Below, piece by piece: positions 4,448 to 48,039 of a stretch of DNA of 64,000 nt. The notes under the pieces were generated by a model. It was not told the origin of the DNA and ran no database searches. It saw only the letters and a list, made by a program, of their open reading frames with translations. Origin of the DNA: Medicago truncatula (Eukaryota > Streptophyta > Magnoliopsida > Fabales > Fabaceae); assembly GCF_003473485.1 (NCBI RefSeq), contig NC_053047.1, positions 2,247,001 through 2,311,000 of the forward strand. The letters run 5' to 3'. Made by a program: the position numbers and the translations under genes. The first letter of the stretch is position 1. Each line of letters opens with the position of its first letter.

Positions 4448-7400
4448 ATGTCCCATGCAGCTTGCTTCAGTCATGATGCCAAATCTGACTTGCAAAGAAA
4501 TCTTGCAGATTTCCACCCTTGCGTTTGGGGAGATTATTTCATTCAATATGATTCAGAATCTGTGGTATGTACATATTGCTATTTATTCCATTAAATCATA
4601 GATATTACAAACTGATTAGACTTAAATGATAAATGAGTTTCATATAAGAGCAAACTCTTTGGAAGAAGTCGAACTCAATTCCTAAATACAACAATTATTT
4701 ATCATCCTTCAAAAAAAAAAAAAAAACAATTATTTATCATACTTTATTTATCTTCCGTTCAAACCCTAAATTAAACATCAAAAAGTTGAGCCCTTGGAAA
4801 TGTCTTTTTTTGTTATCTCTATTTTTTCATCAATAAATGTCTTTTTATTGCTTCAAAATATAAATTCTCAAACACTTGCAGGAGCTTGATCAGAATATCT
4901 CAGCACAAATTGATGCACTAAAAAAGGAAGTGAGAAACATGTTTAATATCTCAAAAACTGAAAAGCCCTCAGAAAAAATTAACTTAATTGATTCGATATG
5001 TCGTTTGGGTGTGAGCTATCATTACGAAAATGAGATTGATGAAGTTATGCAATACATTCACAAGAGCTATGTTGAAAATGGAGAAATAACTCTTCAAGAC
5101 AACCTTTGCACTCTTTCTGTTCTATTCAGGCTGTTGAGGCAACAAGGATTTCATGTGTCACCCAGTATGCATCAAACTAATTTACATTTGTTCTTTTGAA
5201 TTAATTCATGGTCTACTTACAATAATTAATTGAAAAAATTGAGAAGCACACTTAGTTCACACACACAAAAAAAATTACTATACGCAAGAAAAATTCGTAC
5301 TTTGTACATTCTAAGTCCTAAACCCTAAACCTAGTCTCTAATTTTTTGTCATCTCTAATTTTTTGGTGGTAACTCAAATATATAGATGTGTTCAACCAAT
5401 TCAAGGATGAACAAGGAAACTTTAGTGAAAGACTTATCACAGATGTTGAGGGGATGTTAAGCTTGTATGAAGCCTCACATATGATGGTTCATGGAGAGGA
5501 GATCTTGGAAAAGGCATTGGCTTTTACTTCAACTCACCTCGAGTCCATTGTTACCCAATTGAGTCCTTTTCTTGCAGCACAAGTCAAACATAGCTTAAAG
5601 CAGGCTCTCCATAGGAACTTCCATAGGCTAGAGGCACGAAGGTACATTTCAATCTATGAGAAAGATCCTTCACACAATGAAACTCTACTCACTTTGGCAA
5701 AATTGGATTTCAATATTCTCCAATGTCTTCATCGAAAGGAATTCGGAAAAATTTGCAAGTAAGTACTTCAATAACACACGATCAAAATCCTTTGAAACGA
5801 AACAATATTAACAGGAATATTACTTACAAAATTAATCTGTTTATATAACTTTTTTGCTTTTGAACTTTATAGATGGTGGAAGGAAATCGATATCCCTAAA
5901 AACCTACCATATGTACGAGATAGGATTGTGGAAATGTGTTTTTGGGTCTTGGCTGTATATTTTGAGCCCCAATATTCTCAAGCAAGGATAAAATTGACAA
6001 AATTAGGTGCCTTATTATCGATCATTGATGATACATATGATGCATACGGAAGCATTGATGAACTCGAACTTTTTACCAAGGCAATTGAAAGGTTGATTAA
6101 TGCATCATAGTTACATAAATTTTCTTCACATTTCTTTTTCCTTGCTTATAAAAAAAATTCATGGTTGTAATGAAAGTGTGGTTTTCAGGTGGGATATTAG
6201 CAGCATGGACGGTCTTCCTAACTACATGAAATTAATTTATATATCAGTCTTGAAGGTTTTGGAAGAAGTAGAAGAAGATATGACCAAAGAAGGAAGGCTA
6301 TACACCCTTAAATACTATATAAAAGAAGTATGAGTTTGTTCTTTCTTTTAAATACTAATTATTAGCAAAAACTTATCATGAACGATATTCTGTTTCTACA
6401 TAGTAATTGATAGGCAAATATAACTTATATTAGAAATTAATCTCAATTTTTTTTTTAGAAAAATATTTTATTATTTTAGTGATTTTGTAATAAAACTAAT
6501 AAATAATTTTAGAATTGAGTGAATATGTAAAGGGGGCTGGTAATTCGAGTTCGGTCGTGAGGTAATTATAACTTGATCAAGAATTATTTCAAACAGGAAT
6601 AAAACTTTGTTCTCCATATATAATCATTCGTCTTTTGAATCCTAATAAGGAAGAAAAACAGCAACATAACAACTAGCATATTAATATTATTTATAATTAA
6701 GAAAAAAAAAATACTTGTTTGAAGTATATTGGAAATCCCCCGGACAAACCTTGCTAAAAATCAGAAAGAGATGTACTCCTCAACAAAGTTGCTACTGCGA
6801 AATCCTAATTAATGAGATAGTAAGAGATCTCTTCCAACTTAATCAGATATTATGAGTTCAAATTCAACCCTAAAAATATGTCAGTATTAAATTTGTTCAG
6901 CTGGAAGAGCTTTGCAGAGATATCTGATTCACACAAACAATGACATCCGTCCGATCTTTTGATATGTTTTAAAATATAATTTTTTATTTTTTTTATATTG
7001 TGTTGATGACAGTTCCAAATGGTTGTCCAAGCTTATGTAACTGAAGCTAGATGGTTCAACAATAACTATGTACCAACGGTAGAAGAATACTTGCAAATAT
7101 CAAAAATAACATGTTGTCATTCATTACTCACAACAAGTTCTTACATTGGCATGGGTGAGACAGCTACAGAGAACATTTTCAAGTGGGTATCTAATTGGCC
7201 AAAAATTGTTGATGCAATTTCTACTATTTGTAGACTAATGGATGAAATTGTGACCAGTGAGGTATTTATATATCACATCTATATCTAGATATATAGAAAA
7301 TTTAAGCTTTATTTCTCTCTAATGTAAGTTTTTTACACAATAGAAATTGTTGCATTGATTTTTTTTTTTATTACATAGTTTGAACGTAAAAGAGGACATG

Positions 7401-7672
7401 TTTGCTCATTGCTGGATTGCTATATGAAGCAATATGGTATGTCAAGGGAAGCTGCTATTCAAGAATGCAAAAAGGAAATTGCAATTGCTTGGAAAGTTGT
7501 AAATTCGGAATGTCTTAGGCCAACCAAAGTTCCAATGCCGTTTCTAACCCGCGCTCTCAACCTTGCGCGTTTTATGGATGTAGTTTACAAAGATGAAGAT
7601 AACTACACACGTTCTGAAGGACTAATGAAGTCATATATCAAAGCTGTTCTTGTTGATCCAGTTCCAATTTGA
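4448..7672 (+). CDS. TPS: TPS-a class terpene synthase (probable sesquiterpene synthase), 7 exons
   Basis: Exons are 4448-4564, 4882-5164, 5386-5758, 5873-6091, 6189-6327, 7013-7261 and 7379-7672, all with GT-AG introns. They join to 1674 nt, giving 557 aa with no break, the usual length and seven-exon layout of angiosperm TPS-a enzymes. The N-terminus has an R-N-x8-W version of the R(R/P)x8W motif ending at Trp27. RDR lies at 273-275. The metal-binding DDTYD is at 310-314. The second metal motif is D454-E-x-x-T458-x-x-x-E462. It keeps the three metal ligands, but its usual second Asp is Glu. No plastid transit peptide precedes the motif, so a cytosolic enzyme using farnesyl diphosphate is most likely. 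The product cannot be read from sequence. A nerolidol-type or cyclic sesquiterpene is possible. The gene has the same orientation as the CYP82 array that starts 9 kb downstream. Confidence 0.95.
4691..4740 (+). mobile_element. Tail-only retroposon insertion in terpene synthase intron 1
   Basis: Two perfect 15-bp copies of ACAATTATTTATCAT (4691-4705 and 4726-4740) flank a 20-bp insert made of CCTTC followed by 15 A. The target duplication length and the pure A tail fit target-primed reverse transcription by a LINE that stopped almost at once. Other LINE relics in this window end in CTTC plus poly(A), as on the minus strand at 43321-43790. Confidence 0.75.
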
Positions 7673-8590
7673 TCATTAATTTTTATGTTTTGTGCTTTAT
7701 GTTTCAAGTTTGAATTAGAAAAATGCATGTGTGCTTTATGTGCTGCTTGGTTCACAATATTTGAACAATTTATGCTATTTTGATGTAATATCTAGGCTTA
7801 ATTATGCACTTTGGTCAAGTCTGTTGCAAACAGAAAGATATCTTATTTTGATGTAATATACGAACAAGTTATGTGTAATTTGAAACAGTTATGCACTATC
7901 TAGGGCAAGTTATGCTATTTCAAATTCTTGTTAATTAGATAACTTATTTGCTACCTAAATTGTGTACCAATCATGTCTAAATTTTAATTATACCAATCAT
8001 GTCTAATTGCAGGTATATAATCATTCACGTAACAATTGTCACAAAATCAAAGAAATTGTAAATATTTCTACACATTTCGAACAACATCAATTTCATTAAA
8101 CTTCAAAACCCCTACAATCCGATTCTGAATTAAATTGATGTCACTTTTCATACTGAATAATACCTTTATATGCATTGTGTACCAAATACCTTTTTAAGCA
8201 TTATATTTGCAGATTCTTCTTCGAAGTAATCCATTATAGGTAAACCATATATACAATCAAAAAACAGTTATAGGCAACTCATTGTCATAATGCTCTTGGA
8301 ATTGCACATATTAATTGCCAATTATTTAAACTTAATGGGATTTGAACGAAGAACACTTGTACTCCTGTTTATGTTATTTAATCTTTTATTTGGACATCTT
8401 GATTTGTTGGTCAACTTAGCATGGTTTGGTCCTTATTTGTTCGAAATTAAGAAAAATAAAAAGAGAAAAAAACACAAACAACAAAATCCAACTCCAAAGC
8501 ACCATGGCAATAGCAGACAAAAAAATTAACATCAAACACACGAGTTTTTAACCCCATAAGCTTCTTTAAACATGAAAAATAAATAAAAAT
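7673..8590. other. 3' flank of the terpene synthase; no gene seen
   Basis: AT-rich DNA that includes the presumed 3' UTR. The open frame at 8290-8529 shows no domain. TTTGATGTAATAT occurs twice (about 7780 and 7848), a small local duplication. Confidence 0.5.
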
Positions 8591-10458
8591 TAATGACCGT
8601 GCATCAACACTAGTTTTTAGTCATGTTTATTTCGTGTTTATGACAATTAGAGAGTCATCTGCTTGTAATTCATGGTGAAATTAGATCAAAACAGGAATAA
8701 GAGCCCAAAAGAAGAAAAGAGAAAAATATTCCTAAATATGAAGAATCGTGCCACGATGAGCAAAGATCGTGCCATGTTGCAAGGATGTGGAATTCAAGGA
8801 TACTTTCTGGAAACTTCGTGGCACGATGAACTGTGAAACGTGCCGCGATGGTTTGATGAATTTGCAGTCACGTCAGATTAATGAAGTGATCGTGCCACGA
8901 TTGTCCCGTAACGTGGCACGATGATGGGCTTTCTGAAACCCTAAAATTCTTTCTATATAAAGCCACTTGAGGCCAAGGATTAGGGTACTGATTATTACTT
9001 CAATTTTGAGCATAGAAGACACCAGGAGACTAAAGAACAAGCCATGAATCTCATACCAACTCATAGTTGGTTCGAATTTATGTATGTTTACTCTTGTTTA
9101 TGCTTATGATCGTTTTGATATGAGTATCTAAACTCTTAGATTGATTGAGCCATGATGAACCTATTGTAATATATGGATCAGTAGTTGAAGCTCTCTTTAT
9201 TATCAATATTATTCAGTCTTTATTCATAATTATTTGTGTTCATTGTTTTTCATATGATTATTTGCATGACTATTAACTCTAGATTCTTTCAATAACATAA
9301 ATTGATCTTAGAAATTGAATGACTACTAACCCTAGCTTTTAATCCTGAAATAGTAATTCTATTTAATTCAACATAGGAACCTAGAGATAGGAAATTGAGG
9401 GTTATGACATATAAATTAACGTTCTGACATAGCTTTCGCAGTTATTCAATCGGTTTAATAGATTAAAAGGTTATAACTTATGAAATGGTTTTCAGTCAAG
9501 AGATTAATCAAAAGTACTTAGTTAATTTGTCGTAAAGATTGAATATTAATTGAGAATAAAGGGAGGTAGACTACTCATATAGAGCAATAGCAGATTCACC
9601 GGCTTAAAATTCTTTCTATATAATGTCAGTTGCGGCCAAGGATTAGGGTATTGATTATTACTTCAATTTTGAGCATAGAAGACAGCAGGAGACTGAAGAA
9701 CAAGCCCTGAATCTCATACCAACTCATAGTTAGTTCGGATTTATGTATGTTTACTCTTGTTTATGCTTATGATCGTTTTGATATGAGTAGCTAAACTCTT
9801 AGATTGATTGAGCCATGATGAACCTATTGTAATATATGGATCAGTAGTTGAAGCTCTCTTTATTATCAATATTATTCATAATTATTTGTGTTCATTGCTT
9901 TTCATATGATTGTTTGCATGACTATTGATCCTAGCTTCTTTCAATAACATAAATTGATCTTAGGAATTGAATGACTACTAACACCAGCTTTTAATCATGA
10001 AATATCAATTCTGTTTAATTCAACGTAGGAACCTAGAGATAAGAAATTGAGGGTTATGACCTATGAATTAACGTTCTGACATAGCTTCCGCAGTTATTCA
10101 ATCGATTTAAGAGATTAAAAGGTTATAACTTAGGAAATGGTTTTGAGTCAAGAGATTGATCAAAAGTACTTAGTTAATTTGTCGTAAAGATTGAATAGTA
10201 ATTGAGAATAAAGGGAGGTAGACTACTCATATAGAGCAATAGCGGATTAACCGGCTTAATCATTCATCTCGAAGTAATTTTCTCTCGCATTTTATTTACT
10301 GTTTATTAAACCCAACTCTACTGCCTAGGGCAAACCAAATATCTTTTACGTATCATAAACGATAACGTCATTGCTATAATTGAGATTAATACAGTCCTTG
10401 TGGAATAATATTTATTACTACTTCGATAGTTTTTGGTACACTTGCCAAATATCTATCA
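8591..10458 (+). mobile_element. Solo LTR, family 1, copy 1 (with internal 0.65-kb tandem duplication)
   Basis: The unit is bounded by a 5-bp direct repeat AAAAT (8586-8590 and 10459-10463) and aligns end to end with the copies at 50173-51456 and 57194-58345. Its ends are TAATGAC..CTATCA, degenerate TG..CA. The last about 200 bp (GATTAATACAG..CTTCGATAG..GTACACTTGCC) are strongly conserved between copies. Six variants of an ATCGTGGCACGAT palindrome lie at about 8745-8925. Unlike the others, this copy contains a tandem duplication: 8943-9605 and 9606-10257 are close copies with a 663-bp period. No primer site or coding region follows, so it is a solo LTR. Confidence 0.85.
8943..10257 (+). repeat. 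Tandem duplication inside the solo LTR (period 663 bp)
   Basis: AAAATTCTTTCTATATAA starts at 8943 and, with the last base changed, at 9606. The two units can be followed side by side through CCAAGGATTAGGGTA, GAGCATAGAAGAC and TAATATATGGATCAGTAG to ACCGGCTTAA. Only scattered substitutions and one short deletion in the second unit separate them. Confidence 0.9.
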
Positions 10459-11063
10459 AAAATCACAGGACCAAGTCCGATAAAATCTTCCATGGTGTAA
10501 CCAAAGTCGTCTAATAATACTAAGAAACAACAATGATCACCACCAATGGTGAAAAACAGTTAAAAGGGAAAACCAACACAAGAAAGGAGAATACTTAGGT
10601 ATCGTTCCCTACACACTATTCGCTCAGTTTTTCACATGAATGCACCTAAACATTGTCGTTTAAAAATGATTTGGATTAATGGCGGTTGGGCAGTTTTAAT
10701 AATTTATTTTGTAACTAAAGTTATGAACCGGATGAACACTAGCTATTCGAAGAACTGCACATAAGTATTTTTGCAAGAGAAAACCTCTACCAAACAACCT
10801 AAAGAGAAGGTAAAACTAGTAATACAATATATATAAAAAAATTCAAATAGAAACGATTGTGGGGAGACAAGGATCAAAACGTTTTATATGTGCAAAAGCC
10901 ATAAGCAAGCGTTATTTTTTATTATTAGCAAAGAAAGTAAATTTTACCCTTTTTGTTATTTGATTTTACCATTTTTTTTACCCTTTTTATTATACACGCA
11001 GGCCATCATCAGAAGACGGCGAAATAAAATTTCTGGTTTGAATGTGGAAAACATGGTGCACGA

Positions 11064-11960
11064 ATGCAAGCACTCTCAAAAGGGAAGCCTCAAAGTTTTT
11101 TATGCATCTATCCCAATCAAATGATCCCTGTAAACCTCTCATATAGTTTACAACTGGATAATATTCCATCTCTTGGCATTAGCTTGATGGACCAGCTTCT
11201 CTTGCCTGTCACTATGGAAAGGATTAAAGATTCTATTTTCCCTATGCACTCTTACAAAGCCCTAGGACATGATGGATTTCAACCGATATTTTACAAAATT
11301 TGTTGGCATATTGTTGGGCATGATGTATGGGAAATGGTGTCTGCCTGTTTGGTGCTTTTTCTTCCGGCGTTATTGATCATACTCTTGTAGAGACCTTGGT
11401 TGTTCTCATCCTGAAAATTGATATTGCCAAGAGTTTCAAAGAGTTTCGTCCTATCGGCTTATGCAACGTGCTTTTAAAGACAATTTCAAAAGTTCTAGTT
11501 AGACGTATCATCAGACCTTTCTTGGATGATTTTATTGGTCCTCTTCACAGCTCTTTCATTCCCAATAGAGGTACTTCTGATAACACAATTATTGCTCAAG
11601 AGATTTCTCACTGTATGCGCAGGAAAAAAGGTAACAAATGATTTTTATTATTTATAGTGGACTTTGAGAAGACTTATGATTGGGTAGATTGGAATTTCCT
11701 AAGGTTAACCCTTTCGGAATTTGGGTTTCCTCCCTCCACAATTAATTTGATCATGAGTTGTATTACCTTTTCTTCACTTTCTTTTAAGTGGAATGGTGAA
11801 AAACTTGATAGTTTCAAACCGTAGAGGGGTTTACCACAAGAAGATCCACTCTACCTTATTTATTTATTCTTTGCTTGGAGTTATCTCTCATGATACAACA
11901 TGTTACTAGCAACATCTGGAAGTCGATCAAAATTTCCCAAGAAGATGTGCTACAAGATTA
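11064..11960 (+). pseudogene. LINE reverse transcriptase (ORF2) fragment, broken
   Basis: Plus-strand pieces read as the reverse transcriptase domain of a plant L1-type LINE. They include KALGHDGFQPIFYKICWHIV (about 11255-11315), EFRPIGLCNVLLKTISKVLV (about 11430), SSFIPNRGTSDN, VDFEKTYDWVDWNFLRLTL (about 11656) and RGLPQEDPL (about 11824). The last corresponds to the RGLRQGDPLSP motif and carries a Gly-to-Glu change. The reading frame shifts near 11330-11390, and stops occur at 11639 and 11822. The catalytic FADD block is not recognisable. It is an old, 5'- and 3'-truncated copy. Confidence 0.85.
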
Positions 11961-12186
11961 TTCCTTCCGGACTATAGTTTTGGACTAGGTACTTAAGATT
12001 TACATATATACTCGGCTACCTAAACCCCGATAATTTCAACTTAAGAAACATTTTTTTTGCACATTAACATTGATCATAAAAAAATAAAAAATAATTAATT
12101 TTTATATAAGGGATAAGCTGTTTTTATAAATTATCTTAAAAAACTTATTAAAATAAGCTAAAATCAGCTTATAAACAATGTTATAA

Positions 12187-12372
12187 TGAGAAATGATAAT
12201 TGTACAACCACTTTATTACAACTTTTTGATAACTTTCTCTTTCATACTTACATTATATTTTTATTCTCTTTTTTTTTTTTTTTCTCTCTCTCTCTCTCTA
12301 TTGTTTTGGACTAATAAGAAGAGAGAAAATAAAAATTGTCATCAAAATTGTTTCAAATGATTGTACATATAT
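12187..12372. mobile_element. Possible MITE with GATAATTGTACAA-type ends
   Basis: The left end AATGATAATTGTACAACC and the right end CAAATGATTGTACATAT are approximate reverse complements. The interior holds a T-run and (TC)n. A related stretch lies just after P450 A (about 19300-19395: AATAAAAAGAGAGAAAA..TCTCAAATGATTGT). Boundaries and class are uncertain. Confidence 0.4.
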
Positions 12373-13289
12373 CAGTACTCTTTTTCTTCAACGAAAGTCA
12401 ATATAAACATGTTGTCTAGGGTTCTACGAAAGTTCCAAATTTCATTTATCATCTTTTACTAGAAATGACATAGTGTGTTTCGTCTTGTACTCTCGTCCCA
12501 AATGAGTGAAGCTGTCCTTGTCCTAATGTCAGTCACTGTATTTGATATTTTGATCATTGTTGTGTGGCTGTGATCCAACAAGAAAGGAGATTAGCTCAAA
12601 ATATTCAACACTTATCAATTCAATAGATTATGCATGTCCATATGTGGAAAAGAAACAAGAGCATACTCAAAAATCAAATCAAATCATTTATAATATATGC
12701 CTTATTTCCACGTTTATAATTTTAAGAGAATGTTTTTTTCTTCTCTCCTTCTTCCTTCTGTTTTCACTCTTGTCCTCATTCTTCTTCATCTCTTCCTCTT
12801 ATCGTTTTGTTTCTCTTTTCATGATTAAATGCTAACACTATTTAGCATTTTAGTAAAACTGAGGTTGCACTAGTAAAGCTAGAAACATTGCATAAATAAA
12901 GTCAAAAAATTAACTACTGATATTCAACATCCTATAAAGACGTATTACTTATCCAAATTGATTTTTTTTTTTTTTTTAAAAAGGCAACAAATTGATTTTA
13001 TTTACCTACCATTGTTTGTTAAAATCTTGGCCACAATTGTTATTTACTTTAGGAATATTTCAACCACGAACAAAATTAATGCACATTATTTGACAAACAA
13101 TTCTTCGTACCCGCCATTGCATGAATTGGAGCCATATAAAAAATAACGCAAAAAGGAAATCAATTCTCCATATAAAAAATTGGAGCCATTTCATAAATCT
13201 ACTGACAAATAATCTTCTTTTAGGTATTATTTTCTCTACATACTTTTTTATTTTCTTCACGGGTAACTCTTGATTACAAAGAAAAAACA
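12373..13289. other. Intergenic DNA, no gene seen
   Basis: AT-rich with pyrimidine-rich tracts near 12730-12820. The only defined structure is a short poly(T) insertion at 12954-13000, listed separately. Confidence 0.5.
12954..13000 (-). mobile_element. Tail-only retroposon insertion
   Basis: Perfect 12-bp repeats CAAATTGATTTT (12954-12965 and 12989-13000) flank a 23-bp insert of 13 T followed by AAAAAGGCAA. Read on the minus strand this is a few bases plus a poly(A) tail, the product expected from an extremely truncated LINE insertion. Confidence 0.65.
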
Positions 13290-14660
13290 TTAAATCAGAG
13301 AAAGTTTTATCTTCCGTAGTATGTAAAAATTAGATTTGGAGACACGAATGTAATGGAAGAGGTGGTGTGGGAGGAGAGAGAGATGAAAAATAGATTTGAA
13401 AGGATGAAAACAAACAATAACATAATTTAAAATAGGATCGGATGGAGTACTTAATTTAAAATGCTTAAAGAATGCCCCGATACCCAAGGCATCTACAAAT
13501 GCCACCTCCTAAAGAGCACCACACAATTCCCACTCATAGCATCATCTCAAGAGACAATCAGTTGCCGCGGCAAAACTTTAATTTTCTCCACCAATTCTTT
13601 CGCCTTTTTAATTATATTTTTGAAAATACAATCATTTCTCACTTTCTAAATTATCAAAATAGCCACACTATCCGTATCCCTTTCCAACGTTCCCAATGAA
13701 TAAACAAATTTTGGGGGCATGATAAAATTGTTACCAAACCACCACATCAAATTCAACCAAACATTAATTGACATATCACAATGTAAAAATAAACGCGCGA
13801 ACGAGTCTCTTCCATCAACACACCAACCACAATTCTACCCATTATCCGGAGGTAAAACATTCCTTCTCGCTAGATTAACTCTTGTTGGAGTCCTATCAAG
13901 AAGTAGCTTACACAAGAAAGCTACCACTTCCGATGGCGCCGATGACTTCCAAATTTCACCAAAAACTCTCATTTCCTCTTCCGTACGCTCCTCCTCCCAA
14001 AGCAACAAGTCTTCCAATTTGTTATACATCGACTTCAACGAAAAATAATTCATCTTCCTCTAAACTCCAACTCCACTTATCAAGATATAGATGCCTCACA
14101 AAATTTCCTAAATCTTGCAATAAATTAATGAAAATATCGTTTTCCCAATCAAAATATTGACACCTCCAAACAAGGCCCCAACTCCACCGGTTATGTCATT
14201 ATTCCACATCTCATCCACCGTTACCTCTTGTTGATTGAACATAGCAAAAAGTCTCGGATATTTATGTATGAACGGTACCTCCCCTTTCCACACCACCTTC
14301 CAAAAACTAATATTACATCTATTTCTAACTTTCTTAACCACCTCCGCATTAAACCATAAATGCCCCGCCCCACCTTCCAAATTAATAATGTCCTTCCATC
14401 AGCTCGAAGCATATCTAATCCAAGAATTTGTACCTCCCTCCAACAACCCATTTACTCTCTTTCCCTATTTCTCCTCCAAAACATTCTTCCAAAGGGCATT
14501 TTTTTTACTCAACAACCTTAATCTCCATTTAAGCAATAGACTCAAATTCACCAATTTAACATGTCTTACACCCAGCCCTTCATTTTCCTTCGGTTGACAC
14601 ACGCTCTTCCACTTAACCCAATTAATTTCCCTCCCTCCGGCCACACCCTTCAAAGAAACT
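13290..14660 (-). pseudogene. LINE ORF2 C-terminal fragment (zf-RVT region), broken
   Basis: Read on the minus strand from 14650 downwards, frames contain INWVKWKSVCQPKENEGLGV and VKLVNLSLLLKWRLRLL (14465-14653). These are followed by GHLWFNAEVVKKV / ISFWKVVWKGEVPF (about 14230-14360) and GEIWKSSAPSEVVAFLCKLL with RTPTRVNLARRNVLPP (13835-13990). This order is the region after the reverse transcriptase core in plant L1 LINEs, ending in the zf-RVT domain. Frames change several times, so it is a decayed, 5'-truncated copy in the opposite orientation to the relic at 11064-11960. Confidence 0.85.
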
Positions 14661-14752
14661 TGTGTTGGATTCTAACAATCTTCCTCCCCATCTTTTTCAA
14701 CATTTTACCACTCTAACGTCATTGTTTGTTTTTATTGTTTTGTTAATCATTT

Positions 14753-14801
14753 GAAATGAGTTGATGTTTTTTTTTTTTTTGAAACGAAATGAGTTGATGT
14801 T
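14753..14801 (-). mobile_element. Tail-only retroposon insertion
   Basis: Perfect 16-bp repeats GAAATGAGTTGATGTT (14753-14768 and 14786-14801) surround 17 bp consisting of 12 T and GAAAC. On the minus strand this is GTTTC plus a poly(A) tail. It is the same structure as the inserts at 4706-4725 and 12966-12988. Confidence 0.75.
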
Positions 14802-15940
14802 CTAACAGTTGGTTACATACAACTTTCAGTCCTTCTGTAAAAAAACAAAAAAAAAAAAAAAAAATCAATCCTAGTGCAAAGTTTGAACCCGTGTTTTCAT
14901 ATGGATTTCAAACTGCAAATATATGATTTTATTTACTTGTGAGCTTTTAGTCTTAAATATATTTTATATCCGAAAACAAACAATTAATTTGACGCCTAAA
15001 AATTCAATATAAAAATATGAGTGAATGATCAAAATGACATGAAAAAAATTTAAATAAATAAACTGTTATATGAAATTAAATTAAAAGACCACAATAATAA
15101 TTTTGTCAAAATAGTAAACTATAAATTCTTGTCATTTTTTCTTTTGTCATTTTCCTCATCTCAAATTATTGTAGGTCCATCGAAAAAGCTACACGTGGAA
15201 AAGAAACTTAATAATGGAAACAGTAGTTTTGTCAAAAATAATGGAAATAGTAGCTCTATCTCTTTCTACTCTTTTCCTCTATCTATCATTCTCTCTATTT
15301 TTAAGTACTTAGATGAGTCATATATGTAAATATTATTTATTTATAATTTTATCTAATAACTATTTAATCACTTCAACAAAGTGTCTCACACCAATTGACC
15401 CACAAATCATCTATCAATAATTTTATATAATTATATTTTATTTATTTTATACCATTACACGTGATAGTTATCAAGTTTGAACCATACAATTGTCTTTCTT
15501 TATCATTAAAATATTGGAAGCATAGCAATTTTGGAGAGGGCCAATGGTAGTAATATTAATTTTATCTTCCTATAAATATTTTTTTTTTCACAAAATTTCA
15601 CCTTCTACATATTGTTCTTTTGTTATCTTTTAATCTCCAATCATATTTGCATTTTCTTTTGTCAAATGGATCCCAACTAGTGGAACTCTACTATAATTAT
15701 ATGCAAACCCCAATCGATGATGGTTCTCGATATTTTCAATCTTTGACGTATCTACGACCACCACTCCTTAAAGTGACAGTTCTTAATATCCCAAATCTTT
15801 TATGTTTCAATCACCACCATTCCTTATCGAAAATGGTTTTAAAAATCCAAGATCTTTTATGGTTAATCAACACCATTCCCTACCGATGAGAGTTCTCAAA
15901 ATCTACGACATTTTATTTTTCAATCACCTAACGCTGAACC
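14802..15940. other. Intergenic DNA, no gene seen
   Basis: AT-rich and without a recognisable coding region. It leads into the transposase relic that begins near 15950. Confidence 0.5.
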
Positions 15941-15949
15941 GAAATCATC

Positions 15950-16370
15950 AATTAGATCCACTGTTGATTGTTCGAAGTCGTGAAGAAGGGCATAACCGAT
16001 TGTTCAAATGACTACTTCTCTGAAAATCCTGTATACACGGAGGCTCAATTTTGACAAAGGTTATGTATGTGAAGACATGTGTTCCTTCACATCGTTGAAG
16101 CCCTTGGTAATCATGATGAGTACTTTCAGAAAACGAATGATATAGTGGGTAGAACATGACTTGAAGAAGTGCATCGTTGCTCTTAGTATACTAACATATA
16201 TATATATATATAGATCACCAACTAACAGTGTGGATGACTATGTACGTATCTGTGAAAGCACAACATTGCCATGCTTAGACAGGTTCGCAATGGGTGCGGG
16301 CACAATTTTTGGTGATCGGTACATGAGAAGGCCAAACAATGAAGACATTGCAGTATACTACAAATAATAT
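15950..16370 (+). pseudogene. PIF/Harbinger-type transposase (ALP1-like) relic
   Basis: Plus-strand frames read EEGHNRLF then NDYFSENPVYTEAQF (about 15980-16050), RHVFLHIVEALGNHDEYFQ (about 16073-16130) and SPTNSVDDYVRICESTT..CLDRFAMGAGTIFGDRYMRRPNNEDIA (about 16215-16358). This is the order seen in the N-terminal half of plant Harbinger/ALP1-like transposases. Frameshifts and stops (for example TGA near 16010 and 16055) break it, an AT-rich piece interrupts it near 16195-16212, and the DDE catalytic half is missing. It lies directly upstream of P450 A. Confidence 0.75.
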
Positions 16371-16604
16371 ATTTGGTCTATACTATGACAATATTCATCA
16401 TTTATTAAATAAATGTAAGAAGTCAAATATTACTTATAATTGAGATTGAAGGGAGTAAATTTTTAGGTAACTTGAAGATTAGTTGAATATCGATATCTAC
16501 TAACAATTTATTTAAGATTTAAAATTATTTTAACATCAATAAAAATAAAAGTATGACATATCATGAAATTGAATGATTGAATAATAGTTACATACTCAAC
16601 CTAA

Positions 16605-16605
<1 letters not shown>

Positions 16606-16652
<47 letters not shown>
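16606..16652. repeat. (TA)n microsatellite in the P450 A promoter
   Basis: About 23 TA units end 73 bp before the presumed ATG of P450 A, where a TATA box would be expected. Length variation here would change core-promoter geometry. Confidence 0.9.
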
Positions 16653-16655
<3 letters not shown>

Positions 16656-16725
16656 GCTAATACTCATGGCACATCTATATCCACCAATCTCCTACACAAA
16701 CACAATACAACCTCATCTAACTATA

Positions 16726-33170: not shown

Positions 33171-33626
33171 GGCTTAATTGCATTTTTCCCCCTATAGTTT
33201 TTCAATTGTACGATTTTGCATCCCATTGTTTAAAACGAGCGATTTTTCCCCCTATAGTTTTCCCCCTTTCTGATTTTATGGTTCCCATGACATTTAGTGC
33301 TGATGTGTCTGTTATTTATCAATTAATATGTGCCACGTGTGTAATTCCATTTTTTAAAAATAAAAAAAAAGGTATTTTTTCAGATTTTGAGAGAAGGATG
33401 CACGTGAAAATGATGGTATTTTTATCAATTAATCTGAAAAATACCATTTTTTTTACACACGTGGCACACATTAATTGATAAATAACAGACACATCAGCAT
33501 TAAATGTCATGGGAACCATAAAATCATGAAGGGGAAAACTATAGGGGGCAAAATGGCTCGTTTTAAACAATGGGGTGCAAAATCGCACAATTGACAAACT
33601 ATAGACGGGAAAAATGCAATTAAGCC
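33171..33626. mobile_element. Mutator-type foldback element (456 bp)
   Basis: The ends are GGCTTAATTGCATTTTTCCC and its reverse complement. The inverted arms run for about 170 bp each, including the ATGGTTCCCATGACATTTA block. A perfect 9-bp duplication TTTAATTTT (33162-33170 and 33627-33635) is the Mutator signature. No coding capacity. Confidence 0.93.
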
Positions 33627-33923
33627 TTTAATTTTAGTACCAACGTATGACTTTTTCCCTATTACCATCAACAAGTCTATTATATTTACGTGCATTGAGC
33701 AGCCTAGGATAAAATATTTGCGATAAACACTGAGATCATTGAAACATTGAAAATAAAAGGTGAGAGAGACTTTAAATAATTTAACACCATTTTTAAGTAC
33801 TTTATTATAAATAGATTCTAGTTATACCAAACTAAATTTTGTCTATGTTTTGTTTGAGAGTGGGCTTTAAAACTTTACTTAGTAAAGTGGCTAGAATAAA
33901 ATTTTACTTAGCCAATAGTAGTC

Positions 33924-33930
33924 TATATAA
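33924..33930 (+). promoter_or_regulatory. Probable TATA box of pseudogene P450 C, separated by a MITE
   Basis: TATATAA in CTATATAAAC lies 22 bp before the Tourist-like element at 33953. If the element is removed, the motif would be about 70 bp upstream of the ATG at 34362, normal core-promoter spacing. Confidence 0.5.
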
Positions 33931-33952
33931 ACATAACACTTAGGGGGCGTTT

Positions 33953-34315
33953 GTTTGACGGTTTAAAATTTCATTCCTGGGATTAACCTTTCCTGGGAAA
34001 TAATAATGGGCATCTTATTCCTGAGTATTTTTAGAAAATTGTGTTTGGTAAATAATTGTCAGATTCATGGGAATTGTTTGTGATAGTGGGTATATGGGTA
34101 GTTATTTCCATTTTAGTACCATTTACATGGGAATCTTTTATTCCCGGCCACTTTCTTTGGGAATAAAATCATGGGTAAGTGGAAATTATTTTTTTCCTAG
34201 GAATTCTTTATTCCCGGGAGTTATTTTTTTTAACTTTGTAACAAACATAGGAATCTATAATTCCAACCTCCATATTCCTGGGAATAACTTTTTAAACCAG
34301 GAAACAAACACCCCC
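33953..34315. mobile_element. Tourist/PIF-type MITE (363 bp) in the 5' region of P450 C
   Basis: The left end GGGGGCGTTTGTTTGACGGT and the reverse complement of the right end (GGGGGTGTTTGTTTCCTGGT) match closely. TTA flanks both sides (33950-33952 and 34316-34318), the 3-bp Harbinger target duplication. The interior has many CCTGGGAAT/ATTCCC-type repeats. It ends 46 bp before the ATG. Confidence 0.88.
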
Positions 34316-34361
34316 TTAAGGTACACTCTCACCCATTACTATAGCTATCTAATCTAATTAA

Positions 34362-36980
34362 ATGGATTTAATCCATGATTACCTAACTAATGGCACTGCA
34401 TTAGCAGCACTTATTTCTATAATCTTCATGTACTCTTTGTTTCTTCACAACCGTACCTCTAATGGTTCTAAGAGCAAAGAAGCTCCTATAGTGGCTGGTG
34501 CATGGCCAATACTTGGTCACCTCCCATTGTTAAAGGCTTCCAAAGCACCACATAGAACTTTAGGTGATTTAGCTGATAAATATGGACCCTTGTTCACCAT
34601 CAAACTTGGTTCCAAAAATGCTTTGGTACTTAGCAATTCGGAAATGGCGAAGGAATGTTTCACCAAATTTGACGTTGCAATTTCCACTCGTCCTAAACTT
34701 GTTGCAACTGAACATTTGGCTTACAATGGAGCCATGTTAATTCTATGACCTTATGGTCCTTATTGGCGCCAAGTGCGTAAGATAGCATTGTCAGAGATCC
34801 TTGTTAATCGTCGTATTGAAAAACTACAAGAAATTTGTGTTTTGGAAGTTCAAACTTCGATTAAAGAGCTCTTCAATGTTTGGAAGAGTAATAACGAGTC
34901 CAACTATGTGTTAGTCGAGTTGAGGCAATGGTTTATTGAGTTGAATTTCAACATTGTACTTCCGATGATTGTTGGGAAGCGATATTTTGGTGCTATGAAT
35001 GAGCTCGATGAGAAAGAAGCGCAAAAGTGTATCAAAGCTGTAGAGGAAATCTTGCGTTTGATGGGGCAATTCACGGTGGGAGATGCTATTCCTTGTTTAG
35101 AACGGTTTGATTTTGGTGGCCATGTGAAAGCTATGAAAAAAACTTCTAAGGAATTGGACATGATTTTAAATGAATGGTTGAAGGAGCGTCGTAATAGAAC
35201 ATTGAATGAAAAGGTTGATCGTGATCAAGATTTCATGGACGCATTGCTTTCACTGTTTGATGGAACAACAATTGAAGGGTTTTGATGCCGATACCACAAT
35301 CAAAGCCACGATGTTGGTATGTATACTTTCATTATATTCGCTTTATCAATACAATTATTTTTTAAACTCGTATAGTGGAGGCAGGGCCATCCCTGGGTAA
35401 TTGGAGGCTCGGCTCTCATATATAAATAGGCCCCTAATAAAATAAAAACATAATTTTTTTTAAAAGAGCAATTATCAATTTAAATTAAAAATAAGATCCG
35501 TAAAGATAAAAAAAAAAGTCATTATTGTAACTAACACAAAAAAATTGATATTCTAATCAATAATATAAAAATACAACTTCAAACGAACATCATTATCAAT
35601 TTTCTAGGGTGTTATTTTCCTTAATTTGTACAAAGAAAAAAATAAAATATTTATAATGTTTTTTTAGAAAATAATTATAATGTTTTTTCTTTCAAATGAA
35701 AAATTATAATATTTGTTGTTAGTGCTTTATAATTTTATACGATAAGTATGAGGCAAAAATTATAAGAAGAAAACAATGATATTGTGCTTTTATTTTTAAA
35801 TATATAATCCAATATATTAAGGACAATTTGGTTGAATTGGAGAGAAGATTAAGGAGCCTCAAATCCACAATAAATTATGTCCAAACTAAAAAGGCCTCTC
35901 ATACTAAAAATAATTAATTAAAAAAGAAAAATTAATTAAAGAAAAACGGATCCGGGGTTAATTAAAGAGTAAAAAAGGAAAAAAAGTACTAATTTAAAAA
36001 ATACCTACATTCAGAGTGTCGAACCTAGGAATTGGATACCACCAGTTCGTGCTAATACCGCTTGGCCATTTCAGTTTGACTTATTTATTTTTTTACGCCA
36101 TTTGTATATATTAAATAATTACATGTATTATATTTTTAAAAAATAATATTTAGACCCCCAAATTTTAGAGGCTCGGCTCGCTAGAGCTGCTTGCGCCCCC
36201 TCGGGGCCGGCCCTGAGTGGAGGGCCAATGGAACAGAAAGAAAAACTCTATACGAACTTACCAAACACTTTGCTTCAATTGATACATGTTTGAATTTTAT
36301 TTAAACTTACTCTTATACACATTTTTATAAAATTTTCACTTCATTTACAGTCACTAATTGCAGGAGGAATTGACACAAGTGCTATTACCCTTACTTGGGC
36401 AATATGTTTGTTACTGAAAAATCCTCATACATTGGAAAAAGCAAAAGCAGAACTTGACTTCCACGTTGGAAGAGATAAATGTGTAACAAAGTCGGATATA
36501 AACAAGTTGGTGTACCTTCAAGCGATAATCAAAGAAACCCTAAGATTATATCCAGTTGGTCCTCTCTCTGCACCTCGTGAGTTTACCGAAAATTGTAACA
36601 TAGGTGGTTATGATGTCATAAAAGGAACTCGACTAATCTTAAATCTTTGGAAAATCCAAACAGACCATAATGTTTGGTCGGATCCATTAAAGTTTAAACC
36701 AGAAAGATTTCTTAACACTTATAAAGATGTTGATGTTCGAGGGTGTCACTTTGAGTTGTTACCATTTGGAAGTGGTAGAAGGATTTGTCCTGAAATATCT
36801 TTTGGACTAGAAATGATGCATTTAATTTTGGCTAATTTTTTGCATTCATTTGAAATCTTGTATTCATCGAGTGAGCCTATTGATATGACAGAAGTCTTTG
36901 GATTGACGGTCTCCAAAGCTACCCCACTTGAGATTCTGGTTAAACCATGTTTGTCTGTTAATTGCTACGAAACTATGTAA
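34362..36980 (+). pseudogene. CYP82: Cytochrome P450 C, CYP82 family pseudogene
   Basis: Exon 1 (34362-35316) and exon 2 (36351-36980) keep the splice sites and start context of the functional copies, but three lesions are present. An in-frame TGA at 34746-34748 replaces the Ala codon before the PYGPYWR motif. One extra T in the GGGTTTTGATG run near 35280 shifts the frame and gives a stop at 35283-35285, 11 codons before the donor. In exon 2 the heme loop reads [10 protein letters not shown], with Glu (codon 36792-36794) instead of Gly after the Cys-Pro pair. Exon 2 is otherwise open with AGGIDTS, KETLR and PERF. The parent enzyme was a CYP82 of normal length. Its promoter and intron each carry a transposon. 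Confidence 0.95.
35382..36215. mobile_element. Non-autonomous hAT element (834 bp) in the P450 C intron
   Basis: A perfect 8-bp duplication AGTGGAGG (35374-35381 and 36216-36223) flanks an insert. Its ends are CAGGGCCATCCCTGG and the reverse complement of CCGGGGCCGGCCCTG-type sequence, about 11 of 15 matching. GAGGCTCGGCTC occurs near both ends as a direct repeat. There is no transposase frame. Without the insert the intron would be about 190 bp. Confidence 0.92.
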
Positions 36981-40049: not shown

Positions 40050-42294
40050 ATGGATTTGGTTCTTGATTTCCTATCTAGTGTCACTTCAGTAGCACTCTTT
40101 TCAATATTCTTGTTTTCTTTTTTGTTTCTTTATCGTTCCTACAAAGTTTCCCATAGCAAAGAGGCTCCTATAGTTCAAGGGGCATGGCCAATACTTGGTC
40201 ACCTCCCACTATTAAGATCTTCACAATCACCTCATAGAACCTTAGGTGCATTGGCTGATAAATATGGACCCTTGTTCACTATTAAGCTTGGTTCCAAACG
40301 TGCTTTGGTTGTTAGCAATTGGGAAATGGCAAAGGAATGTTTCACAAAAATTGACTTGGCAATATCCAATCGCCCTAAACTTGAAGCAACTCAACATTTG
40401 GGTTACAATGGTGCCATGTTTGCGTTAGCACCCTATGGTTCTTGTTGGCGCCAAGTAAGGAAGATTGCAACTTCAGAGATCCTCAGCCATAGGCATGTCG
40501 AACAACAACAATATTTTCATACCTCAGAAGTTCAGGCGTGGATTAAAGAGCTCTTCAATGTTTGGTTTAGTAAAAAGAACGAGTCATCAAACTACGCGTT
40601 GGTGGAGTTAAAGCAATGGTTTACTCAATTAAGTTTCAACATTGTTCTTCCAGTGCTGGTTGGGAAACGATATTTTGGTGCTACGAATGTGGCGAACGAG
40701 GAAGAAGCGCAAAGATGTATAAAAGCTTTACAAGAGTTGATGCGATTGTTAGGGGTGTTCACAATAGGAGATGCCATTCCTTTTCTAAAATGGTTTGATT
40801 TTGGTGGCCATGTGAAGGCCATGAAAGCAACTTCTAAAGAATTGGACAAGATTTTAGGTGAGTTGTTGGAAGAGCGCCGCCATAAAAGGAGTTTGAGTAA
40901 GAAGATTGATCATGATCATCAAGACTTCATGGATGCCTTGCTTTCATTGCTTGATGAAACACCAATTGAAGGGTGTGATTCTGATACTACAATCAAAGCG
41001 ACAATATTGGTATGTGCATACTTGCTATTTAAATCAAATATCCTTTTATGCCTCTGTTTGGCAAGGCCAATAAATTAGCTTATAGTGGATAGCTTATTAA
41101 TTACTTTTTTTTCAATTATAATTCTAATTAATAATATTTTCATCATTCTCAATTCAATATTTTCCACTTTATTTTTATGACAAAGACATTTAAAATCATT
41201 TTTGTCTCTCTTTCACTTATAATTTTTTCTAATATATGTGAAATAATCAAATCACTCACTTAATTTGAGACGGAGAGAGTACTCTCTGACAATAGTTTAC
41301 ATTTTTATTCTAATAATTCTCAAGATTCAATGTCAAATTCCAAGCCCTTATTTTAAGCATAAATATAATCAAAGATTACTTGAGCGTAGCGCCCTTTCGA
41401 TTAATAATAATTAAGAAAAAATATGATGTTTTATTAATAATAAAGAAAATTGTAGAGAGAGGTTTTATAACTACTCTCAAGAAAAGCTCTAACACAACTC
41501 AGATGGGAGTCCAAATCTAACCCTAAACGTAAAACTTATTTATTCTTTCATACCTAGATGTCTTATAAATAAATAAAAAGAACATTCTAATATTTAACCC
41601 TAATAGATCTCTTATATATTATTTAATCATAATGTGTCTTTTGAAATTCGTACTTCTTTTACAGACACTAATCGGGGGAGGAATTGAAACAACTAGCGTT
41701 ACCCTTACATGGGCAATATGTTTGTTGCTTAGAAATCCTCTAATATTGAAAAAAGCAAAAGAAGAACTTGATGCTCAAGTTGGAAAAGAGAGGTGTGTAA
41801 GAAAGTCAGATATAGACAAGTTGGTGTACCTTCAAGCCATAGTCAAAGAAACACTAAGATTATATCCACCTGGCCCTTTATCTGTGCCTCGTGAATTCTC
41901 AGAGAATTGTAATTTAGGTGGATATGATGTAAGAAATGGAACACGATTAATTTTGAATCTTTGGAAGATTCACACTGATCCTAATGTTTGGTCAGATCCA
42001 TTAGTATTCAAACCGGAGAGGTTTCTTACAACGCATAAAGATATTGATTTTAGAGGTAATCATTTTGAGCTATTACCATTTGGAGGTGGTAGAAGGATTT
42101 GTCCCGGAATATCATTAGGGCTTCAAATGCTGCATTTAACTTTGGCTAGTTTTTTGCATTCCTTTGAAATCTTAAATCCATCAAGTGAACCTATTGATAT
42201 GAATGAAACTTTTGGATTAAGCAACACCAAAACAACTCCTCTTGAGATTCTTATAAAGCCACGTTTGTCTTCGAATTGTTATGAAATTATGTGA
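40050..42294 (+). CDS. CYP82: Cytochrome P450 D, CYP82 family
   Basis: Exons 40050-41009 and 41665-42294 encode 529 aa. The frame is open further upstream (to 39945), but [10 protein letters not shown] is chosen because it aligns with every other copy and its upstream TTACCTAATAAA is shared with P450 E. Motifs are an N-terminal anchor, [11 protein letters not shown]-helix GGGIETTS (321-328 region, Glu instead of Asp in the acid-alcohol pair, as the family allows), KETLR, PERF and [10 protein letters not shown] with Cys466. It is the closest relative of P450 E, differing mainly in the segment after the [11 protein letters not shown] block. The 655-bp intron is the shortest among the intact copies and appears free of large insertions. 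Confidence 0.95.
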
Positions 42295-43885: not shown

Positions 43886-44009
43886 TAACAGTTATTTTCT
43901 ACGCAATTACGCTGAATGCCTGTGTGCTCACTTTATATCATGTCGGCAGAGGCAACTTCTCCTCATTTGGAAAGAAAACAAAAAGGGTCAAGATTCCTCG
44001 CCCATTTTT

Positions 44010-44051: not shown

Positions 44052-44139
44052 TCAATGTTGATATCTAAAAATTGCATATGTGAGAAAAAATAATAAATTA
44101 TCAAAAAAATTGCAAATGTCTCTTGTAACATATTCGGAG

Positions 44140-44400: not shown

Positions 44401-44652
44401 CCTTTTGCTGGTCACGCAACTGAAAAAATGTGGTCACGCATACCATATATTTGGTTAACTGAAAAAGGTGGTCATGCATACCAATGTCTTCTATTTCTTC
44501 CACTTGCTCCTTCCTTTTTTTCAAAACCCTCCCCTCCCCTCCCCTCCAAACTCCCAAACAAAGCCTAAGATTAGTCTCTTAGGATTTATCAACGTTTAGC
44601 CATTAGTCTCTTCATCCCATTACTTCATCATAACTTTTCCTTACCTAATAAA

Positions 44653-47600
44653 ATGGATTTGGTTCTTGATTTCCTAACTAGTGCCACTACACTAGCACTA
44701 TTTTCAATACTCTTGTTTTATTGTTTGTTTCTTTATCGTTCCTACAAAGTTTCTCATAGCAAAGAGGATCCTATAGTTCAAGGGGCATGGCCAATACTTG
44801 GTCACCTCCCACTATTAAGATCTTCACAATCACCTCATAGAACCTTAGGTGCATTGGCTGATAAATATGGACCCTTGTTCACTATTAAGATTGGTTCCAA
44901 ACGTGCTTTGGTTCTTAGCAATTGGGAAATGGCAAAGGAATGTTTCACCAAAATTGACTTGGCAATATCCACTCGCCCTAAAGGTGAAGCATATAAACAT
45001 ATGACTTACAATGGAGCTTTTCTTGGGTTTGCACCCAATGGTTCTTATTACCGTGAAATAAGAAAGATAGCAACTTCAGAAATGCTCACCAATCGGCGTG
45101 TTGAACAACAACAACATTTTCATATCTTAGAAGTGCAACGGTGGATTAAAGAGCTCTTCGATGTTTGGTTTAGTAAAAAGAATGAGTCATCAAACTACGT
45201 GTTGGTGGAGATGAAGCAATGGTTAACTCAATTGAGTTTCAATATTGTTCTTCCAATGCTGGTTGGGAAACAATATTTTGGTCATCCTACGAATGTGATC
45301 AACGAGGAAGAAGGGCAAAGATGTGTAAAAGCTTTAAAAAAGTTGATGCATTTGTTAGGGGTGTTCACAATAGGAGATGCCATTCCTTTACTAAAATGGT
45401 TTGATTTTGGTGGCCATGTGAAGGCCATGAAAGCAACTTCTAAAGAATTGGACAAGATTTTAGGTGATTTGTTGGAGGAGCACCGCCATAAAAGGAGTTT
45501 GGGTGCGAAGGAGGTTGATCGGAATCATCAAGACTTCATGGATGTGATGCTTTCATTGTTTGATGGAACAACAATTGAAGGATTTGATTCTGATACCATA
45601 ATCAAAGCCACAGTATTGGTATGTACATACTAGCTATTCATCAAATCTCCTTTTAAATCTTTCCGATGAAAATATTAAATTTTACTTAGACATGACAACA
45701 AACCTAGGCATGGCAATGGGGCGGGGTGGGGACGGGTTTTACCTTCCTCATCCCCATATCCGATTCTCATATACTTACATGTTACCCTACTCATACCCAA
45801 CGGGGATGAGAAATTGAATCTCATCCCCGTCCCCGACGGGTTCGGGTATCCCCGCCCCATCCCCGTCCCCGCATTGAATAATTTTTTAAATAAAAAATAG
45901 AAGTTTTTTAGCATCCCCAAGAGCAACATTGTAATACATTATCCAACAATAAGCTCACTTTAACATTTGTTAGACAAAATGATTTAGTTTATCCTTTAAA
46001 TATCAATGGTAGTTTTTATTAACATGACAATTATCAAACAAAATAACATAACATATCCACATAAAGTAATTTTTTCCATTTGGGACGGGTTTGGGTATGG
46101 GTTCGGGGTGGGTACTTATATACCCGTTACCCGTCCCATACCCGTGTTTTGAGATCGGGGAAAACCCATACCCATACCCAAACCTAGTCAAAACGGGAAA
46201 AACCCATCAAATTGGGTTTGGTTCGGACGGGTAACCACGGATATGGGTTTTGTTGCCATGCCTAAACAAACCCGCTTCGCCAGACCCGTCCGCCCGCCCC
46301 GAATTTAACGGGAAAAAGCCGATTTAATTGGGTGCGGGTGTGGGGGAAATTTGGATTTTTAGTACCGGGGCGGGGGATGCTTACATCCACCCCGTACCCA
46401 CCCCCGTCCCGCACCCGCTTTTTGAAATTTACTTTATTAAATTTTATAATCTTATTTCCATAAGCACCAAACTATTTTAATATATTATTACTCTTTAGAA
46501 ACATATTTATTATAATTATTTTGCTCTTTGGAATAAAAATTTATTAGATCTTTAATTATTGATATAATTATTGTTTTTTGTTGCTATGAAAAAATGAAAA
46601 AATATGCATGTTTTAAATATTTTATAAAAAATAGAGTTTTCGCGGATGGGGGTGGGGGCGGGACCGGGAAACCCGTTCTCATTGGGAGCGAGATTGAGTG
46701 TTCAACTTTTACCTCTAATATGCTTTTGGGATGGGGACTGGTGCATGGGTAAACCCGCCCCCGCCCCGCTCCGTTGCCATGTCTAATTTTACTTCCTTCA
46801 AAAAGTTTTCTCCTTCAATGTCAAATTCCAAGATCTTGTTGTTTTATTAGGTTTCATTTTGATCATTTAAGTTATTTTAAGTTTTGTTTTGGTTCCATAT
46901 TATGTTTTGTTTTATTTATGTCTCCTAATTACACACATTATACAATCTAATCATTACGTTTGGTTCTTAAGTTATTAATGTTGGACACCTTGGTCTCCTT
47001 AGATACAAATATTAAAACATTTTGAGCTTTGATAGGAAGGACTACTTCTTCCGTGCCAAAGTGAGTGGTCCATTTGTAAAAAAAAAAATTGTTTTGAAAA
47101 TAAATTATCTATTTGACTTTTTAATGTAATATGAATTACGTTTAATTTTCAATTATACTCTTTGATTAATATTAATTGTATTACTCTTAATTCAACATCT
47201 TCCGATTTATATTAATGATAATTGTGAGTACATCAATACTTGTTAATGACACTCAAAATTTTTATTTTTTTTTTACTTATACAATTTTTTTAATATGTGT
47301 AAAATTTTTAAATGGGTCATTCATCGTGAGACTGAGGGAGTAACACATACACACTCTTCAATGAAAAAAGATGTTAAATTTTCTTATGGAATTCATACCT
47401 CATTGACAGAACTTAATCGCGGGAGGAGTTGACACAACCAGTGTTACCCTTACATGGGCAATATGTTTGTTACTTAGAAATCCTCTAATATTGGAAAAAG
47501 CAAAAGAAGAACTTGATACTCAAGTTGGAAAAGAGAGGTGTGTAAGAGAGACAGACATAGACAAGTTGGTGTATCTTCAAGCCATTGTCAAAGAAACCCT

Positions 47601-48039
47601 AAGATTATATCCAGCTGGCCCTTTATCGGCACCTCGTGAATTCTCAGAGAATTGCAATTTAGATGGATATGATGTAAGAAAAGGAACACGGTTAATTTTG
47701 AATCTTAGAAAGATTCACACTGATCCAAATATTTGGTCAAATCCATTGGAATTCAAACCAGAGCGGTTTCTTACTACCCATAAAGACGTTGATGTTAGAG
47801 GTCATCATTTTGAGCTATTACCATTTGGAGGTGGTAGAAGGATTTGCCCTGGAATGTCATTTGGCCTTCAAATGGTGCATTTAACTTTGGCTAGTTTTTT
47901 GCATTCCTTTGAAATCTTAAATCCATCAAGTGAACCTATTGATATGACTGAAACTTTTGGATTAACCAACACCAAAACAACTCCTCTTGAGATTCTTATT
48001 AAGCCACGTTTGTCTTCGAATTGCTATGAAATTATGTGA
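44653..48039 (+). CDS. CYP82: Cytochrome P450 E, CYP82 family
   Basis: Exons 44653-45618 and 47410-48039 encode 531 aa without a break. [12 protein letters not shown] starts the protein after the same TTACCTAATAAA leader as P450 D. Motifs are [18 protein letters not shown] (I-helix, the most canonical in the array), KETLR, PERF and [10 protein letters not shown] with Cys468. One odd change is present: the NLWKIHTDP segment reads NLRKIHTDP (Arg422, codon AGA at 47707-47709), while all four other copies keep Trp. PYGPYWR in exon 1 is PNGSYYR. These substitutions may alter folding or heme-propionate contacts. The 1791-bp intron is swollen by nested transposons. Confidence 0.94.
45687..46785. mobile_element. 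hAT-type non-autonomous element (1099 bp, outer) in the P450 E intron
   Basis: A perfect 8-bp duplication ATTTTACT (45679-45686 and 46786-46793) flanks ends TAGACATGACAAC and, as reverse complement, TAGACATGGCAAC. A second element of the same kind sits inside it (45705-46264). Without that insert and one target copy the outer element is about 531 bp. Interiors are rich in GGGTACGGG/CCCGTACCC-like strings, and no transposase is encoded. Confidence 0.92.
45705..46264. mobile_element. Nested hAT-type element (560 bp, inner)
   Basis: The ends are TAGGCATGGCAAT and, as reverse complement, TAGGCATGGCAAC. They are flanked by a perfect 8-bp duplication AACAAACC (45697-45704 and 46265-46272). It inserted 18 bp inside the left end of the outer element, which carries related TAGACATG ends. 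Confidence 0.92.
47042..47340. mobile_element. Possible Stowaway-like MITE in the P450 E intron
   Basis: CTACTTCTTCCGTGCCAAAGTGAGTGGTCC at the left resembles the reverse complement of the right end, GGGTCATTCATCGTGAGACTGAGGGAG. TA follows on the right but not cleanly on the left. Confidence 0.45.

Follow-up and report, generated by a model that had tools for sequence, protein, structure and literature searches.

Does a terpene synthase encoded beside an array of cytochrome P450 genes in Medicago truncatula hand its product to these P450s, or are the two merely neighbours? The question is raised by a 64,000-nt window of chromosome 6 (C6:2247001-2311000; "the window" means this whole stretch), taken from an assembly of 429.9 Mb in 42 contigs. 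On its plus strand, between positions 4448 and 48039, lies a set of six members: one intact terpene synthase (TPS) gene, four intact P450 genes and one P450 pseudogene. The synthase is on the upstream side of the array, at a distance of 9.05 kb (7673-16725). The enzyme classes of the synthase and of the P450s follow from their predicted proteins; the P450s may or may not use the product of the synthase. We favor, with a probability of about 65%, a reading in which the synthase and the P450 array are independent neighbours that act separately. Independence is what we infer by default, since chance could account for the proximity and nothing was found that ties both sets.

The synthase gene (4448-7672, plus strand) contains seven exons (4448-4564, 4882-5164, 5386-5758, 5873-6091, 6189-6327, 7013-7261 and 7379-7672) separated by GT-AG introns. 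The spliced exons form a single 557-residue frame without internal stop. The Pfam domains Terpene_synth (2.2e-58) and Terpene_synth_C (3.3e-91) are both found in the protein, together with an RDR motif at position 273, a DDTYD motif at 310 and the sequence DEIVTSEFE at 454. In this last sequence, which corresponds to the NSE/DTE motif, D454, T458 and E462 are kept; we take these positions to be the metal-holding sites of related enzymes. A glutamate replaces the second aspartate, the one departure from the strict (N/D)Dxx(S/T)xxxE pattern. No sign of decay was seen in the gene.

Comparison with the PDB gave 46 matched sequences. The top 20 are all sesquiterpene synthases (438-525 bits) and comprise delta-cadinene, vetispiradiene, 5-epi-aristolochene, bicyclogermacrene, drimenol, cyperene and amorphadiene synthases. 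Lower matches include Terpenoid synthase 18 (376 bits) and the camphene/tricyclene (358), isoprene (340) and (+)-limonene (319) synthases. Cotton (+)-delta-cadinene synthase (3g4d), vetispiradiene synthase (5jo7) and tobacco 5-epi-aristolochene synthase (3lz9) align with the M. truncatula protein over nearly the full length, with 522-525 bits, and have in common with it RDR, DDxxD and the ligand positions of NSE/DTE. The protein differs from TPS-a sesquiterpene synthases by the glutamate of DEIVTSEFE and by R17-N18 in place of an RR pair, which is canonical at this position. Among synthases with a solved structure, the TPS-a sesquiterpene synthases are the closest to this protein, an assignment that is a ranking by PDB bit score and not by tree. 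With its nearest structures of TPS-a type go the two Pfam domains, a length of about 550 residues and the DDxxD and NSE/DTE sites, as for a TPS-a sesquiterpene synthase. TPS-a enzymes ionise farnesyl diphosphate to make sesquiterpenes. The present protein would accordingly be viewed as a class I synthase that ionises farnesyl diphosphate through the metal sites of DDxxD and NSE/DTE and may release a sesquiterpene or a sesquiterpene alcohol.

Fourteen TPS-a members are reported in M. truncatula, with products known earlier for MtTPS1, 5 and 10 (PMC10902008), and the synthase is probably one of these 14. In the same report, 11 further members were tested with farnesyl diphosphate synthase in E. 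coli; six were active and five were inactive. The five inactive enzymes bring in the idea that the synthase, although intact in sequence, makes no product on farnesyl diphosphate and has no chemistry to share with the P450s. The six active enzymes, as well as the retention of DDTYD, D454, T458 and E462, speak against a silent synthase, which we consider improbable.

The P450 copies are numbered c1 to c5 from the synthase side, all on the plus strand. The four intact ones are c1 (16726-19272; exons 16726-17697 and 18643-19272; 533 residues), c2 (27711-30664; exons 27711-28676 and 30035-30664; 531 residues), c4 (40050-42294; exons 40050-41009 and 41665-42294; 529 residues) and c5 (44653-48039; exons 44653-45618 and 47410-48039; 531 residues). 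Each has two exons and a single GT-AG intron at an identical place. ExxR, PERF and the heme cysteine loop are found in all four, as is the I-helix motif (A/G)GX(D/E)T, whose acidic residue is an aspartate in three copies and a glutamate in c4 (GGIET). The heme loop ends with CPG in three of the four and with CPA in c2. The C-helix WxxxR is also present in three, c5 having a tyrosine at the place of the tryptophan (exon 44653-45618). The Pfam scan of the P450s covered two of the four, c1 (1.1e-89) and c5 (1.7e-95), and both match p450. As predicted proteins, the four intact copies satisfy the motif set of A-type cytochrome P450s, which in plants oxidise small lipophilic compounds. The pseudogene c3 (34362-36980) is interrupted by an in-frame stop (34746-34748) and by a second frame loss near 35283; both lesions precede the intron. 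With the five intact proteins as queries, tblastn gave 45 rows, none of which falls outside the six gene spans, and thus showed no other TPS or P450 fragment in the window.

A preliminary description of this DNA had named a same-strand set of one intact synthase, four intact P450s and one pseudogene. This gene content is correct: gene models, GT-AG introns, open frames and motifs all agree. It had also labelled the synthase TPS-a, as the rank among solved structures now supports, and the P450s CYP82. The latter label follows general features of the family, which the array fits; it presumably belongs to CYP82. Membership of the family is defined by more than 40% identity to a named CYP82, and none is found among the 60 PDB matches listed out of 305. 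For soybean CYP82 proteins, aspartate, glutamate or glycine is tabled at the I-helix place where c4 has its glutamate (PMC9048032).

Is the locus a gene cluster? Under the plantiSMASH definition, a cluster needs three or more enzyme subclasses from at least two classes, sequences more than 50% identical being counted once (PMC5570173). The genes of such a cluster serve a single pathway and, as a rule, are expressed together. The intact P450s are 67-83% identical and therefore make one enzyme subclass. With the single TPS, this gives two subclasses in the window versus three required, and the cluster label does not hold within the window. The "candidate terpenoid gene cluster" of the preliminary description keeps its gene content and, within the window, loses its name. 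Within the window, the locus is at most a TPS-P450 pair. Its two sides are adjacent in the sense of such pairs, since the six of 22 open frames of the intervening gap that were Pfam-scanned show no gene other than retroelement pieces. TPS-P450 pairs are reported to be prevalent, with capsidiol in pepper as a functional example (PMC8253395), and TPS-P450 combinations to be far commoner than chance (PMC10721696). These reports, together with the intact catalytic motifs of the synthase and of the P450s, argue for a functional pair in which at least one neighbouring P450 would hydroxylate the sesquiterpene of the synthase, and the remaining copies would yield variant products or have their role elsewhere. 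The presence of two subclasses only in the window argues against it.

Proximity was then set against a chance model of uniform placement. The model uses 38 TPS groups, 346 P450 genes (a count from PMC8467197) in 120, 180 or 250 assumed groups, and an assumed space per gene. It predicts 0.47-0.74 TPS groups at 10 kb or less from a P450 and a probability of 38-52% for at least one. Proximity alone is within chance, a second point against a functional pair.

Shared regulation was sought in 1-kb regions upstream of the six starts, on both strands, by counting eight motifs (W-box, G-box, as-1, GCC, loose MYB, AACGTG, P1BS and CATGTG) against 200 mononucleotide shuffles of each sequence. None of the eight is enriched at both the synthase and an intact P450. 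Shared regulation of the two sides was not retained, there being no common motif enrichment, and this result also stands against a functional pair. The sole clear excess is that of the G-box upstream of the pseudogene c3 (33362-34361), with two palindromic sites giving four strand counts (p 0.00); the corresponding 1-kb regions of the five intact genes have no G-box. The next-lowest values are p 0.09 for GCC at c4 and p 0.12 for MYB at c5. When the 2-kb upstream regions were compared, short matches were found between c1 and c4 (28 and 24 bp), c1 and c2 (31 bp) and c4 and c5 (42 and 47 bp).

Several observations weigh against independence. First, when the model is restricted to CYP82-type arrays, whose number is assumed to be 5 or 10, the probability of proximity by chance is 2-5%; this estimate narrows the question after the answer has been seen. 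Second, in partial lists of the genome, seven of the 38 TPS groups are within 100 kb of P450s (expected 1.09, 99% limit 4) and four within 50 kb (expected 0.60, 99% limit 3). Because TPS groups are in excess near P450s, the neighbourhood may carry some meaning, and the excess, within these partial lists, also supports a functional pair. Third, all members of the set are on the same strand, and the 9 kb that separate the synthase from the array are nearly matched by the widest interval between array members (8.4 kb, from c1 to c2). Fourth, a 149-bp inverted similarity (70%, 1.4e-10) links the regions upstream of the synthase (3891-4026) and of c3 (33928-34074). This similarity is perhaps a dispersed repeat. 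Taken together, the upstream motifs and the inverted similarity are weak evidence and count little for or against coupling.

The genome counts depend on how the lists were made. The TPS list has 61 positions, from at least 156 genome matches. The P450 list, on C1 to C8, gives each gene a single row; it has 92 positions, from the 92 scored among 823 candidates, to which the four intact P450s of the window are added. Rows for second exons are not in the lists, nor are several TPS copies of chromosomes 3 and 7 that are nearly identical; restoring the chromosome-7 copies gives 37 TPS groups instead of 38. The locus studied here counts once in each tally. With the same lists, two of the 38 groups are within 20 kb of P450s (expected 0.31, 99% limit 2). 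The null ignores gene-poor regions and gene density, which inflates the observed excess and makes it an upper reading; the incompleteness of the P450 list biases in the opposite direction. The excess is in line with a published statement that TPS-P450 combinations occur more often than chance would give (PMC10721696). Other TPS groups within 100 kb of P450s are located at C5:42.51-42.56, C5:32.45-32.52, C2:33.16-33.32, C8:19.31-19.37 and C3:26.18-26.24 Mb. Arrays of TPS copies with equal or near-equal Pfam scores were also seen at C6:15.04-15.18 Mb and C7:27.16-27.27 Mb; they are either recent tandem expansions or assembly copies.

Known systems resemble the locus in part. In pepper, CaTPS39 likewise lies near a putative CYP82; it is a TPS-f enzyme whose products are nerolidol and geranyllinalool, and expression of its gene is reported to correlate with that of the P450, whereas the synthase described here is of TPS-a type and known from sequence alone (PMC10721696). 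Grape physical clusters 92 and 138 contain, as here, tandem CYP82 copies of the same family with pseudogenes, but 22 CYP82 sequences each versus five here, in a table of P450s only (PMC6023221). Cotton CYP82L1 and CYP82L2 are reported to form homoterpenes from nerolidol and geranyllinalool (PMC5787835), which lends some support to a functional pair. Against this, the CYP82 examples from terpenoid metabolism found here use acyclic alcohols, while the principal products given for TPS-a enzymes of M. truncatula are mostly cyclic, one of these enzymes, MtTPS8, giving farnesene and some nerolidol (PMC10902008). In the literature, searched mostly at listing level, we found no legume CYP82 that acts on a cyclic sesquiterpene. 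All points considered, we regard a functional pair as unlikely.

Members of the CYP82 family work beyond terpenoid metabolism as well. CYP82D enzymes are described as flavone hydroxylases in Scutellaria (PMC5770198), CYP82Y1 acts in noscapine synthesis (PMC5862900) and soybean CYP82A3 is linked to jasmonate and ethylene signalling (PMC9048032). The two CYP82 precedents put forward in the preliminary description do not settle function: the substrates of the homoterpene reaction are acyclic alcohols, and the family has roles in other pathways. The same enzymes favor a form of separate action in which the array would serve other substrates, of isoflavonoid, alkaloid-like or lipid defence type, and the synthase would work with distant P450s or emit an unmodified volatile. 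The reported release of terpene volatiles by M. truncatula after herbivory (PMC10902008) is consistent with the last idea. We place this proposal slightly below an even chance. No publication naming this locus was found; the guessed gene-name prefixes Medtr6g008 and Medtr6g00 gave nothing with terpene synthase.

How did the array arise next to the synthase? BLASTP identity among the intact P450s is 83% for c4-c5, 77% for c1-c2 and 67-69% for the four other pairs. Synonymous divergence (dS, NG86) is graded likewise, with 0.16 for c4-c5, 0.33 for c1-c2 and 0.64-0.72 for the other intact pairs. Within the window, similarity between P450 copies spans each gene and extends no more than about 125 bp past it. 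Because identities and dS are graded and copy similarity stops so close to the genes, the array most likely grew by single-gene duplications. In the expansion that these values suggest, c4/c5 would be the youngest pair and c1/c2 the next, with one copy, c3, being lost. Duplication of a block containing the synthase and a P450 was considered and rejected: no repeat pair of at least 80 bp in the window includes the synthase.

The pair c4/c5 is a mosaic that switches repeatedly between near-identical and divergent sequence, with 146 differences over 1587 nt. The differences are clumped (variance 30.7 vs 7.0, printed p 0.0000 with 2000 shuffles) and the longest identical run reaches 121 nt (p 0.0005). 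In the control pair c1/c2, clumping is not significant (variance 16.9 vs 10.7, p 0.064; longest run 38 nt, p 0.40). Because the c4/c5 differences are clumped, unlike those of c1/c2, the patchiness suggests gene conversion between neighbours more than selection. Amino-acid differences between c4 and c5 are greatest in residues about 91-180 and 271-330, and the stretch of about 91-180 presumably may touch substrate recognition. Pairwise dN/dS (dN, nonsynonymous divergence) is 0.53. In segment 121-180, dN is 0.16 and dS 0.41, as compared with a dS of 0.02-0.03 in segments 31-90 and 61-120. Positive selection on c4/c5 was not retained, as the divergent stretches have raised dS too; this judgement comes from pairwise dN/dS and the comparison of segments. 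The introns of c4 and c5 have two short matches in common, of 27 and 20 bp. One may imagine a young legume sesquiterpenoid pair, with a cyclic TPS-a product oxidised by one or more adjacent CYP82 enzymes, c4 and c5 diverging in two stretches and conversion keeping the others alike; we consider this very unlikely.

The gap between the synthase and c1 (7673-16725) is occupied by a tandem repeat and retroelement pieces. The repeat (8942-10259) has a unit of about 660 bp, 92.8% identical, and lies 1.3 kb downstream of the synthase. The retroelement pieces match RVT_1 (4.9e-06; 11324-11638) and zf-RVT (6.1e-06; 13838-14059), both slightly below the Pfam cut-offs. Outside the six genes, the window has 64 open frames of at least 72 residues, 44 of them within 7673-48039 and 22 within the gap. 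The Pfam scan covered 17 of the 64, including nine of the 44 between genes and six of the 22 in the gap, plus one frame overlapping the start of c2. One open frame matches DUF1091 at chance level (E 0.04). That no other intact gene lies between the members, as had been described, holds for the nine scanned frames of the 44, the remaining ones having been inspected by eye only; with such a partial scan, a short or many-exon gene between the synthase and c5 could escape.

Among the 17 scanned frames of the window, no third enzyme was seen. Downstream of the array, a 256-residue open frame on the minus strand (52814-53584) matches DUF1639 (1.3e-15) and is probably a gene. A POT-family transporter gene (PF00854, 3.4e-41) is represented by its terminal portion at 63244-63999 on the minus strand and continues past the window edge. 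The window has no tRNA gene by ARAGORN and no Rfam match.

The locus is best described as a juxtaposition of two unremarkable components of plant specialised metabolism, a description that is testable. If the synthase and the P450s do not form a pair, the locus would be a case showing that TPS-P450 proximity alone should not be named a cluster.

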